Shown in pieces: positions 10,301 through 57,410 of a stretch of DNA of 64,000 bases. Source of the DNA: Alphaproteobacteria bacterium. Lineage in GTDB: Bacteria > Pseudomonadota > Alphaproteobacteria > UBA2136 > UBA6156. The DNA lies in NCBI GenBank assembly GCA_027485835.1, contig JAIXQG010000002.1:512232-576231 (forward strand), read 5' to 3'. Positions within the stretch are counted from its first letter, which is position 1, and every line of letters begins with the position of its first letter. Made by a program: the position numbers and the translations under genes. A model generated the notes under the pieces. It was not told the DNA's origin, searched no databases, and worked only from the letters and a program-made list of their open reading frames with translations.

Positions 10301-12862
10301 TTACGGGCTGGCGGTGGCGATGTTGACCAGACGGCCAGGCACATAGACCTGTTTGGCGATGGTTTTACCTTCCAGCCACGGCTTGGCGTCGGCCGAGGCG
10401 TGGGCCGCGGCGAGGGCGTCGGCCTCCGACACATCGGCGGGAAGGACCACGCGGGCACGGAGCTTGCCGTCGACTTGCACAATGAGGGTAATTTCGTCAT
10501 CACGGGCGGCGTCTTCGCTGTAGGCGGGCCAGCTGGCTGCGTGCAGCGGTTGGGTGTGGCCTAGGAGTTGCCAGAGTTCTTCTGTGATGTGCGGTACGGC
10601 CGGGTTAAGCAGGCGCACCAGCGCCTCCACCCCTTGGCGGAACAGGGCGGGGGAGGCCTTGCCTTCGGCGGCGTACAGGCCATTCGCCAGTTCCATACAG
10701 GCGGCAACCATCGTGTTGTACTGGAAGCGTTCGATGTCGGACGTCACCTTGCGGATGGTCTGGTGGATTTTGCGGTTGAGCGCCTTGTCGGTGGCGTCGT
10801 CGCCGCTGCCGTTGGCGGCAACCGCCTTTTCTGTGAGGGTCCAAACACGGTTGAGGAAGCGCCATGCACCTTCGATCGCGGTTTCCGACCATTCCAGATC
10901 GCGCTCCGGCGGGGCGGTGAAGAGCATGTAGAGGCGGAGGGTATCGGCGCCGTACTTTTCGATCAGGGCGTCGGGGCTGTCGCCGTTGTTCTTGCTCTTA
11001 CTGATTTTCTCGGCCGGTTTGACGGTAATGGCTTCGCCGGTGGCTTTCTCGACCCATGTGCCATCGCGTTGCTCCACCTGCGACGGGTAGAGGTAGGTGC
11101 CGTCGGCCTTCTGGTAGCTGTTGCCGATGACCATGCCTTGGCAGAGCAGGGCCGAGAACGGCTCGGTGCAGCTGACGTAGCCGGTATCACGCAATGCCTT
11201 AGTGAAGAAGCGGGCGTAGAGGAGGTGGAGCACCGCGTGCTCGATACCGCCGATGTACTGGTCAACGCCGCCGCCCGTGGGCATCCAGTAGTCAAGCGCG
11301 GCTTTGTCGAGCGGTTGGTTCGCTTGCGGGCAGAGGTAACGCATGAAGTACCAGCTGCTGTCGGCGAAGGTGTCCATGGTGTCGGTCTCGCGTACCGCCA
11401 TGCCGTTACAGCTCGGGCAGGTGGTGTGCTTCCAGCTGGGATGTGTATCCAACGGGTTGCCGGAGCCGGTGATATCGACATCCTCCGGTAACTGCACGGG
11501 AAGTGATTCACGGGGAACAGGCACCACGCCGCAGGCTTCGCAGTGGATGAAGGGGATCGGGCAGCCCCAGTAACGTTGGCGGGAAATACCCCAGTCGCGC
11601 AGGCGCCATTGGGTCACGCCTTTGCCCCAGCCTTCGGATTCCGCCTTGGAAATGATGATAGCCTTTGCTTCGTCGACCTTCTGGCCGTTGATGAGCGGGC
11701 TGTTGATGTGGGCGCCGTCGCCGGTATACGGAAGATCCTGAGTGCTTTCAATGACCGGCACGATCGGGAGATTGTATTTCGTGGCAAACGCGAAGTCGCG
11801 CTCGTCGTGAGCCGGTACGGCCATCAGTGCACCCGTGCCGTAGGTGCTCAGCACGAAGTTGGCGATGAAGATGGGGAGTTCTTCGCCGGTGAGGGGGTGG
11901 ACGGCGGTGAAGGGGGTCTTGTAACCCTTCTTTTCGGCTTTATCGATGGTTTCTTGCGCCGTGCCGAGGGCAGCGGCTTCGGCGATGAATTCTTGCGCTT
12001 TAACGTCGTTTAAGGCCGTCTGGGCGGCAAGGGCGTGCTCCGGCGCAACGGCACAGAAGGTGGCGCCGTAGAGGGTGTCGGGACGGGTGGTGAAGACATC
12101 AAGGGTGTCGGGCAGGGTTGCGGCGCCGTGCTTGACGACGAAACTGAATTGCAGGCCCTGCGATTTACCAATCCAGTTTTCCTGCATGGTGCGCACGCGC
12201 TCCGGCCAGTTGGGCAGCTGATTCAGGTCGGCGAGGAGTTCGTCGGCGTACTGGGTGATTTTCAGCATCCATTGCGGCATGGAGCGGCGCTCGACCGGTG
12301 CGCCGGAGCGCCAGCCCTTGCCGTCGACCACTTGCTCGTTGGCAAGCACGGTCTGGTCGATGGGGTCCCAGTTGACGAAGGTTTCCTTGCGGTAGACAAG
12401 GCCTTTCTCGTACAGGCTAAGGAAGAGGCCTTGCTGGTGGCCGTAATACTCCGGCAGGCAGGTTGCCACCTCTTTGCTCCAGTCGTAGCTCCAGCCAAAC
12501 TGCTGCATGGTGCGCTTCATTTCGGCGATGTTGTTCAGCGTCCACGCCTTGGGATGGGTTTTGCGTTTGATGGCGGCGTTCTCGGCGGGCAGACCGAAGG
12601 CATCCCAGCCCATGGGGTGCATCACGTTAAAGCCAGTAGCGCGCTTGTAGCGGGCCAGTACGTCGCCCAGTGTGTAATTACGCACGTGACCCATGTGCAG
12701 CTGGCCGGAGGGATAGGGGAGCATTTCCAGCACGTAGTATTTGGGCTTGGAGGTATCGACCTCGGCGCGGAAAACGTTGGATTCGAACCAGTTTTTCTGC
12801 CATTTCGGTTCCAATTGAGAGGGTGTATACTTGCCGGTGGCGGCGGGAGCTGCTGTATTCAT
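10301..12862 (-). CDS. leuS: Leucyl-tRNA synthetase
   Basis: An 853-residue class I synthetase charging tRNA-Leu. The HIGH-type motif is HMGH (56-59) after MLPYPSGQL. The editing domain includes [12 protein letters not shown]. The KMSKS loop appears as KISKSKNN, a minor variant seen in other LeuRS. An anticodon-binding domain is at the C-terminus. ATG 12862 is preferred; a TTG at 12898 would add 12 residues but overlaps the palindromic repeat upstream. No good ribosome-binding site is visible for either start. Confidence 0.97.
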
Positions 12863-12891
12863 GGGCACATTTGTAGCAGGCCTTAAAGCCG

Positions 12892-13021
12892 TTTGCAAAT
12901 TCTACTAGTCAGGGCTGCAAAGGGGCTTTATCTGCGCTTCCGCTCCTCATGTACGTCTTTGTACACTGCGGTGCGGTTCTCGCTCAAACCCCTTTTCGCA
13001 CCTGCCTAGCGAATTTGCCAA
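12892..13021. repeat. Palindromic element, copy A (about 130 bases)
   Basis: The ends are inverted copies of each other (GCAAATTCTACTAGTCAGG on the left; the right end read in reverse is GCAAATTCGCTAGGCAGG). Pairing continues inward to a centre of GTAC-GTCTTT-GTAC at 12951-12964, so the element can fold into one long imperfect hairpin. A second copy lies at 57217-57343. Both are intergenic. No open reading frame is apparent inside. Confidence 0.65.
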
Positions 13022-13039
13022 AACGGCTTTGGCGATAAC

Positions 13040-13063
13040 AAAAGAGGCCCAAAGGCCTCTTTT
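13040..13063 (-). terminator. Terminator after the DUF3576 gene
   Basis: AAAAGAGGCC and GGCCTCTTTT are perfect 10-base arms around CAAA. The hairpin is symmetric, so it can act on both strands. Confidence 0.85.
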
Positions 13064-13075
13064 AGGAATTCGCGA

Positions 13076-13603
13076 CTATTTCGCGCGGGATTGGACCTTG
13101 ATGGCACGGGCCTTAGTGAGAATCGTGTCTTCCAGCGCTGTAACGGTGGCAGCAGCTACAGGCGCGTCGGCCCAGACGCCACCGGTACGCAGCTGCTTGA
13201 ACAGCGAGACTTTCAGCGCGTCGGCACGCAGGGTTTTGCCGAGAATCAGCACGTTGGCACGCACGCGCTCGTCCGGCTGGGCGGGGTTGCTGTACCAGTC
13301 GGTGGTAATCACGCCGCCGTTGCTGTCGGCCTGGGTGATGGGCATGAAGGCGACGCTTTCCAGTGCCGCACGCCACAGATAGATATTCACGCCAATGTTA
13401 CCGCCGGTTTCGGGGTTGTTCTTGTCGCGCTTGAAGCCTTCCAGAATGTTACCGGATTCTCCTGAAAACAGACCCGGACCTTCCGGCATATCGGTCGGGT
13501 TCACTTCCGGCGCTTCTATCTTGGCGCCTGCACAGGCGGCAAGCACGCTGGCACACACGGCGACTGCCATAAGACGTGACGAGACGGTGAGGATTCGGGA
13601 CAT
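13076..13603 (-). CDS. DUF3576 lipoprotein
   Basis: A 175-residue lipoprotein with lipobox VLAAC (Cys24). The mature part has NIYLWRAALESVAFMPITQAD, GGVITTDWYSNPAQPDERVRANV and LRADALKVSLFKQ. These are the conserved blocks of the DUF3576 family, found in alphaproteobacteria next to leuS. The function is unknown, and the lipid anchor implies an envelope role. ATG 13603 has AAAGGA upstream; an earlier in-frame start would spoil the signal sequence. It is transcribed alone. Confidence 0.9.
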   Translation of the reverse strand: MSRILTVSSRLMAVAVCASVLAACAGAKIEAPEVNPTDMPEGPGLFSGESGNILEGFKRDKNNPETGGNIGVNIYLWRAALESVAFMPITQADSNGGVITTDWYSNPAQPDERVRANVLILGKTLRADALKVSLFKQLRTGGVWADAPVAAATVTALEDTILTKARAIKVQSRAK

Positions 13604-13721
13604 TCGTATTCCTTTCTTGTTGGCGCGAGGGAGGCGCGTATAGGGCGGATGGTGGCGGGGCGCTAAACGTTTGTCAAGCCAGCGAGCATCGTTGCGCGGC
13701 ATGCGCATGAAAACCCCACAA

Positions 13722-41736: not shown

Positions 41737-43320
41737 ATGGACGATGTAAAGAGCCAAGGCCGTCGCGTGTATCGCCCGACCGGCGGTAGTTTGAGTGTAA
41801 AGCCAAGCGGTGAAGCCACCGGCACCTTGGGCGTGCGCGCCAAGGCCGATGAGGTATTAGATACCGTAGCTGCGGTAGTGGAAGGTATGGAGGCACCTGC
41901 CGCTGAGAGCCGCGAGCCCCGCGAAAACCGTGAGTTTAAAGACCGTGGCGAGCGCAATGACCGGAATGGTCGCGGCCGTCCGCGTCGGGATGACCGCACC
42001 GGTGGTGGCCAGATGGGTGATGAGCTGCGTGAGCCGCGTGCGCCGCGTGAAGGGGGTGCCAGCATGGAAATTACCCACCTGCAGCAGATCCGTGACCTTT
42101 CCAATGAAGACGTGTTCCAGTTGGCGGAAGAAGCGGGTGTGAAGGACCCGGCGAATTTGCGCCGTCATGAGCTGATGTTCCGCATTGTGGAACGCCAAGA
42201 CCGCAGCATTGTGGTGCGCGGTGAGGGTTGTTTGGACATTGTGCCGGATGGCTTTGGCTTTTTGCGTGCAAAAGAAAATAACTATACCGGTACGCCCGAA
42301 GACATTTACGTCAGCCCGAGCTTGATCCGCCGGATGGGCCTGCGCAACGGCGATATGATTACCGGTACGGTGCGTCACCCCAACCCCGGTGAGCGTTACT
42401 TTGCACTGGTGGCGATTGAAACCCTGCAGGGCATGAAGCCGGACCAAGTGCGTCACCGCCCGAACTTTGACAAGCTGACACCCCTGTACCCGACCGAAAA
42501 GTTTACCTTGGAAGATGCCAACAGCAAGGACCGCACCGGTCAGGTGATTGACTTGGTGGCGCCGATCGGGAAGGGCCAGCGCTGCATGCTGGTAGCGCCG
42601 CCCAAAGCCGGTAAGACCATGATGATGAAGGCGATTGCCCACGCAATTGAAGAAAAACACCCTGAAGTGACCCTGATGGTGCTGCTGGTGGACGAGCGCC
42701 CCGAGGAAGTGACGGATATGGAGCGCAGTGTGAAGGGTGAAGTGATTTCCTCGACCTTTGACGAGCCCGCCAGCCGCCACGTGCAGGTATCGGAAATGGT
42801 GATTGAAAAAGCCAAGCGTTTGGTGGAGTTGGGGCAGGATGTGGTGATTCTGCTCGACAGCTTGACCCGCTTGGCGCGTGCCTATAACACCGTTGTGCCC
42901 AGTTCTGGGAAGGTTTTGACCGGTGGTGTGGATGCGAATGCGTTGCAGAAGCCGAAGCGCTTCTTTGGTGCGGCCCGTAAGATCGAGCAGGGCGGCAGCC
43001 TGACGATTATTGCCACCGCGCTGATTGATACCGGTAGCCGTATGGACGAAGTGATTTTTGAAGAGTTCAAGGGCACCGGTAACTCGGAAATCACGCTCGA
43101 CCGCAAGCTGGTGGAAAAGCGGACGTATCCGGCGATTGATATTTCGAAGAGCGGGACACGTCACGAAGAGATGTTGTTTAGCGAAGACCAGTTGCAGAAG
43201 GTTTGGATTCTGCGCCGTATTCTGCAGCCGATGGGCATTGTGGAGAGCATGGAATTCCTGCTCGACAAGATGAAGCGCGCGAAGACCAATGCCGACTTTT
43301 TCCGGTCGATGAACCAGTAG
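41737..43320 (+). CDS. rho: Transcription termination factor Rho, with N-terminal extension
   Basis: The canonical Rho begins near [16 protein letters not shown] (42064) and runs about 418 residues. It has the RNA-binding primary site ([14 protein letters not shown]), Walker [26 protein letters not shown] (Walker B/catalytic Glu), [13 protein letters not shown] (the Q/R-loop region) and the C-terminal [13 protein letters not shown]. In frame upstream is a 109-residue extension rich in Arg, Asp, Glu and Gly ([20 protein letters not shown]), likely disordered and RNA-binding. ATG 41737 lacks a clear ribosome-binding site and ATG 42064 has AAGGGGG, so the start is open. Confidence 0.95.
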
Positions 43321-43359
43321 TCGGGCGCACCGGACGGGCGATCTGGCACTTTTTTCCCA

Positions 43360-43408
43360 AAAATCGGGCGGCTTATGTAGTCGTTTCTACACCGCGCCAC
43401 CCGATTTT
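43360..43408. repeat. Palindromic hairpin downstream of rho (possible element copy C)
   Basis: AAAATCGGG and CCCGATTTT form the outer arms and TGTAG-TCGTTT-CTACA the centre. The centre closely resembles those of the palindromic elements at 12951 and 57271 (TGTAC-nnnTTT-GTACA type), suggesting a shortened relative. Confidence 0.4.
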
Positions 43409-43456
43409 CGTGAAGAAAAGCACCAGCTCATCCCGCCGGATGCACCCGATATGCAG

Positions 43457-43482
43457 CCGCCTCGATTAGGGCGGTTTTTTTT
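43457..43482 (+). terminator. Terminator after rho
   Basis: CCGCCT pairs with AGGGCGG (one bulge), followed by eight T. Confidence 0.75.
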
Positions 43483-57079: not shown

Positions 57080-57216
57080 TGTTTGGTCTTTCTCCTTGGT
57101 TTTACCGGTTCCTGTCACTCTTATGGTTGTTGTGACAAATGGAACTGTTGGGCTCATCATAAAAGGTTGAGTTGGGGGGTCAAGTAAAACACGACATCGC
57201 GTATTATCTTATTCAC

Positions 57217-57343
57217 CGAATTCTACTGGCAGCGGCGCTTTTTCCGCTTTGCTTGATGCTGCGCTCCGCATGTACTGGTTTGTACACTTACGGTGCTCGC
57301 ATCTGCACAAATCGCAAAAATCTCTCGCTACCAGCGAATTCCG
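57217..57343. repeat. Palindromic element, copy B (about 127 bases)
   Basis: The ends are inverted: CGAATTCTACTGGCAGCG on the left; the right end read in reverse is CGGAATTCGCTGGTAGCG. Pairing continues inward to TGTAC-TGGTTT-GTACA at 57271-57285. Centre and arms share long blocks with copy A at 12892-13021, for example the CATGTAC...TTTGTACAC core and the CAGCGAATT/TAGCGAATT end. It is intergenic, between the BI-1 gene start and the end of the phosphohexomutase gene. Confidence 0.65.
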
Positions 57344-57410
57344 AGGCCGAAACAAACGCCCGCCTTGCGGCGGGCGGACGACCAGTTGAACAACTTTAAC
57401 GGGGTTTTGC

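Follow-up and report, generated by a model that had tools for sequence, protein, structure and literature searches.

On balance, we favor the view that the long palindrome at positions 12892-13021 of the window (the whole 64,000-nucleotide stretch analyzed here, C2:512232-576231 of its own genome) is one copy, hereafter copy A, of a long-established family of structured mobile elements that are non-autonomous and ~130-155 bp long. This family, from an uncultured alphaproteobacterial order (genus UBA6156 and relatives), would be handled as a folded single strand, with its orientation set by the polarity of the chromosome. The genus itself, g__UBA6156, is listed as Alphaproteobacteria (PMC12616128). 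The segment is a single long imperfect palindrome. Its apical core CATGTACGTCTTTGTACAC (12948..12966, + strand; in outline CATGTAC-GTC-TTTGTACAC) comprises the apical stem TGTAC/GTACA, a loop and an asymmetric 3' side. The RNA fold energies of copy A are -53.9 kcal/mol for the + strand and -61.3 kcal/mol for the - strand. Allowing up to three mismatches, the core pattern has two matches in the window (12948 and 57269), with 0 expected (100 shuffles). In the palindrome scan, copy A scores 28 over 146 bp, and no palindrome scoring at least 17 was found in 233 kb of shuffled sequence. Fold, core and scan thus agree with the initial annotation, which had described the whole segment as a long imperfect palindrome with this type of center. 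Its estimate of ~130 bases was too short: set against the empty site of a sister species (G002), copy A extends over ~12881-13032, ~152 bp (on + as judged from its CATGTAC..TTTGTACAC core, with foldability kept on -). The ends carry a perfect 10-bp outer inverted repeat, formed by the left arm AAAGCCGTTT of the outermost stem (12885..12894, +), whose sequence differs among copies, and the right arm AAACGGCTTT (13021..13030, +).

Copy A is an insertion between leuS (10301..12862, -), which lies outside the element, and a DUF3576 gene (13076..13708, -), since the corresponding spacer of G002 is only 65 bp long and lacks it, reading TAGCAGG-AGTTGGATGATAAAAAAAGAGGCC against TAGCAGG-[152 bp]-CGATAACAAAAGAGGCC in the window. 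In G004, from another genus, the leuS/DUF3576 spacer likewise lacks copy A, and a role as leuS leader or attenuator was rejected given its absence before leuS in both genomes. The hairpin AAAAGAGGCC..GGCCTCTTTT (13040..13064), which resembles a bidirectional terminator and separates copy A from the DUF3576 gene, is still present at the empty site, and is therefore not part of the element. We identified a second full/empty pair (L117 versus L136), so that empty sites in relatives are now documented at two places. The suggestion that the palindrome could be a MITE is borne out to this extent: it is multi-copy, non-coding, intergenic, and present or absent at orthologous sites, and the family therefore behaves like a non-autonomous mobile element.

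Two further copies lie in the window. Copy B, with a class I stem, occupies 57211..57352 (+) between a Bax1-I-type gene and a phosphoglucomutase/phosphomannomutase gene, both on the - strand. The third, more diverged, occupies 43316..43458 (+), directly behind the rho gene (41737-43320); G002 has an element at this same position, and in G007 one follows the homologous gene. It had been proposed that both the architecture and much of the sequence of copy A recur 44 kb away. The architecture does recur, together with a 35-base core (83%), but the stem sequences are not shared. Genome-wide, what had been announced as a family from two copies amounts to ~26 copies in the genome of the window (G000), all on +, when core patterns, covariance model and palindrome scan are combined over a genome sampled in stretches and, like all genomes used here, available as a draft assembly. 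The core pattern alone has seven matches in this genome, 7:0 in favor of the + strand, with no match there for its reversed control, and a second core-pattern search gave 15:0 on +. A covariance model built from 13 copies matches in 10 of 11 family genomes, and one built from 76 copies in all 18 order genomes (strongly in families f1, f3, f4 and f5, weakly in f2 and f6), the E-values of both models being rough. A palindrome scan blind to orientation and core returned 29 long palindromes from 545 kb of G000, most of them with the apex RTGTAC-loop-GTACAC in the same orientation, on several unrelated stem classes. No Rfam covariance model matched over the element at gathering score, and no similar DNA was found in E. 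coli genomes and phages; we regard the element as a previously unlisted mobile hairpin family. Several contigs of G004 (L142, L155, L153, L154) end inside near-identical copies, as if palindromes break assemblies, and copy numbers from drafts may thus be too low.

The unit of this family is a long hairpin of ~130-155 bp, with a conserved apical stem and conserved internal loops, and with helices that change by compensatory changes. Class I stems start with GAATTCTACTG and end with CAGCGAATTC, and class II stems read GCGCGGGCTAAAAC ... GTTTGTAGCCTCGCGC; copy A represents a third subclass with an extra outer stem of free sequence. Across 76 copies, 37 of 40 pairs covary, with both sides changed and pairing kept. 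The number of double-change cells is 482, versus 117 in shuffles (0 of 500 shuffles reached 482), and the signal is lost when the partner is slid by one base. The apical stem itself covaries (CATGTAC/GTACAC, CACGTAC/GTACGC, CACATAC/GTATGC). Moreover, loop length differs among copies, as fits a hairpin better than a protein footprint with two sites on double-stranded DNA.

Only one strand of this hairpin, the C-rich complement of the core strand, is kept foldable. With copies written core-forward, isolated mismatches are A.C in 55 cases versus G.T in 5. Counted by distinct sequence context they are 38 A.C versus 5 G.T, and 77 Y.Y versus 5 R.R; these counts come from related copies and overstate independence, as collapsing by context removes part of the kinship only. 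On the complementary strand the same mismatches become G.T wobbles and purine mismatches. The C-rich strand folds more stably than its complement in 97 of 98 copies under DNA parameters, and in 91 of 98 under RNA parameters. Selection seems to act on how the C-rich strand folds, because a mutation pressure enriching G and T on the + strand predicts the opposite mismatches. The fold would form either as DNA or as RNA.

Copies mostly begin right behind the stop codons of co-directional genes. Of the 50 copies with a + gene on their left, 41 start no more than ~25 nt from its stop codon, and only 7 of 32 convergent copies are that close to the right-hand stop codon, with genes around copies defined as simple longest-ORF calls. 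Two G004 copies (L141 ~6700 and L144 ~8770), inspected by eye in reverse-strand reading, start directly after a tRNA-like CCACCA 3' end. Tandem gene contexts are balanced (15 >E> versus 14 <E<, and 18 versus 21 in a second count).

Part of this pattern would suit a small structured RNA, or an element of mRNA 3' ends or leaders, for which the C-rich strand would be transcribed and the hairpin would be the product (e.g., a stability or RNase III element or, for copy A, a leuS leader). The wobbles and purine-purine mismatches on the C-rich strand, the very strong covariation and the many copies abutting stop codons all speak for it. However, given the balanced tandem contexts, the folding strand is sense to its neighbors in only about half of the cases, and the strand that abuts stop codons as a 3' UTR is the less foldable one. 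No promoter enrichment was found on either flank of the copies, no Rfam family matches, and copy A is missing before leuS in G002 and G004. Context balance and missing promoters count against RNA genes, and we consider this explanation unlikely. Integron-type attC sites offer another precedent for a bottom strand that folds and sits just after a gene's stop codon: they are sequence-variable imperfect palindromes of constant structure, and their recombination is specific for the bottom strand (PMC3053210). Yet the R''/R' boxes RYYYAAC/GTTRRRY occur in only 1 of 98 copies on either strand (shuffled mean 0.1), and the copies are dispersed singly among housekeeping genes, without cassette arrays, which makes an attC identity extremely improbable.

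The family turns over slowly, since some copies are found at the same place across species or genera, for example behind rho or behind the L128/L116 gene. At three orthologous sites, G000 and G002 each carry an element that follows the same stop codon and points the same way, with a class I stem in one species and a class II stem in the other; further orthologous sites carry the same stem class in diverged or degenerate form. Copies therefore not only arise at new sites and degenerate or vanish, but are also swapped at a fixed site for copies with another stem. This exchange bears on the possibility that we are dealing with an ordinary MITE that has its autonomous partner among known DDE or HUH transposons, and whose orientation would be a by-product of survival, since hairpins folding better on the lagging-strand template would be deleted. 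Copy number, intergenic location, empty sites and outer inverted repeats are all those of a MITE, but class replacement at fixed sites is unusual for such elements. Moreover, the outermost stem differs from copy to copy, leaving no conserved terminal inverted repeat sequence, no target-site duplication is visible at the two full/empty pairs, whose flanks have diverged, and Y1 transposases are missing. We therefore hold an ordinary MITE to be doubtful.

The same features separate the family, here read as non-autonomous structured mobile elements, from other bacterial palindromes. Like ERIC/IRU, Correia and RUP elements (PMC10969869), it consists of imperfect palindromes of ~130 bp (ERIC, 127 bp) that are intergenic, reach tens of copies, and are present or absent between relatives. 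Unlike ERIC and MITE-like palindromes, it is strand-locked, with one strand kept foldable and with compensatory helices around a conserved apex; it also has no fixed terminal inverted repeat sequence, and no target-site duplication was visible in the diverged flanks of the two full/empty pairs. Rickettsia palindromic elements (RPE; named in PMC10969869) are likewise palindromes of ~150 bp in Alphaproteobacteria, but lie in frame inside genes, whereas our element is intergenic.

The closest mechanistic likeness is to REP/REPIN-TnpA_REP (RAYT) and IS200/IS605 systems, with which the element shares a hairpin, a one-sided bulge near the tip and a single-strand logic (PMC3116915, PMC6006769). Strand-polarized insertion is known for IS608 and ISDra2 (PMC3116915, PMC6006769). 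Nevertheless, the REP-type hairpin that the initial annotation had put forward as the other option is not supported. The element (130-152 bp, 152 bp for copy A) is 4-7 times longer than REP or REPIN hairpins, which measure 20-40 bp and carry a tetranucleotide tag at their base, and its folding strand is the complement of the G-rich strand, unlike in REP and IS200/IS605. The search for a transposase with matching ends covered the Y1 family (PF01797), to which TnpA_REP belongs, and found none in any of the 11 family genomes, with the positive controls, including Caulobacter and E. coli, detected. Membership in REP/RAYT and IS200/IS605 was rejected on these grounds.

We observed a strict orientation of the element along the chromosome. 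All copies found in G000 lie on one strand, the G-rich one, and every covariance-model copy and every apex-bearing palindrome of the scan is on +. Across genomes, the strand whose local GC skew is positive carries 79 of 85 copies: 58 of 58 in genera g1 and g3, and 21 of 27 in g4, the six exceptions all belonging to G009, where the skew is near zero. The direction of neighboring genes does not explain this orientation, given the balance of tandem contexts. In G012 the copies are all + among the matches listed. In G013 (family f4), both orientations occur within contigs (C2, C3, C11, C17), so that the order as a whole does not share the strand lock; in contigs C2 and C17 the orientation switches once along the contig, among the matches listed. 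The orientation rule holds for the family of the window and probably for f3, and does not hold for the whole order.

Skew was quantified at four-fold sites in sampled rather than continuous stretches, one of which (L137, C2:920001-935000) consists of N only. In G000 it is ~+0.35 on the arm formed by C2:528-1022 kb and C1:0-226 kb and ~+0.1 to +0.2 on the other arm, stepping at parB (C2:527.6 kb) and at the dif site (C1:226633), and it is clearly negative in none of the sampled stretches. The sign of the skew is also kept across parB and across dif in G002 and G004. Three species of two genera are thus without sign change, and in G000 only the size of the skew steps at parB and dif (L217, L306-L309, L293-L298, L299-L305). 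A recent inversion of one arm in G000 was rejected as the cause of the one-signed skew, because G002 and G004 are likewise without reversal. A pure fork-orientation rule was rejected as well: copies on the left arm (C2:91936, 278789, 376010 and 525188 in G000; C6:120282 and 237057 in G004) are oriented like those on the right arm, although bidirectional replication from parB to dif would give them the opposite fork direction.

The agreement between orientation and skew could also reflect selection on a chromosome-organizing DNA site, a polarized mark for replication, segregation or repair with a logic like that of KOPS or Chi. In its favor, all copies of G000 and all of g1 and g3 follow the G-rich strand, and the family is old and order-wide. 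However, copies are few and uneven (17 on the strong-skew arm versus 4 on the other in genome-wide searches), their sites differ between sister species, and their orientations are mixed in G013; we therefore judge this explanation very unlikely. For the mobile element that we favor, a putative enzyme supplied in trans would recognize the element as a folded single strand, and may read the apical hairpin, including the bulge on one of its sides. The orientation lock could then arise in two ways: insertion may use DNA that is single-stranded on one strand only, or insertions in the opposite orientation may expose the better-folding strand at the fork and be lost. Short palindromic repeats abound in bacteria, but we know of no other family that keeps to a single chromosome strand and in which selection is seen on the folding of one strand only. 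Such a family would serve as a natural recorder of the strand that is exposed or single-stranded, and points to a putative enzyme acting on folded single strands.

A one-signed skew is the pattern that a chromosome copied mostly one way would show. It is conceivable, though we give it a rather low probability, that the chromosomes of this family have a strand polarity without reversal at parB/oriC or dif, as would a main chromosome copied largely in one direction, and that the hairpins are single-strand mobile elements of a new mobility class whose orientation records that polarity. The experimental demonstration of one-directional replication reportedly concerns chromids. A survey of complete genomes predicted unidirectional patterns for only 77 of 16,103 large replicons (PMC7858055). 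Strand-locked elements, together with a skew that keeps its sign at both oriC and dif in three species, make one-directional replication of a main chromosome testable.

The 20-base core GCTCCTCATGTAC-NNN-TTTGTACA is also found in ~19 copies of an AT-rich repeat in a metagenome-assembled genome (JAUPUP, bin.56; L047-L069). These repeats were rejected as relatives, since their stems differ and they divide about evenly with respect to skew, and we treat the shared core as a chance match of one repeat family because, by our own arithmetic, ~0.5 chance hits are expected for such a pattern in 257 Gb. Finally, G004 contains a recently amplified subtype of the element (L145, L149, L153, L154, L159), which has a second hairpin, CCAGGGGGAGAACC..GGTTCTCCCCCTGG, and more shared sequence on its right side, and one copy of which carries a 33-base insertion.
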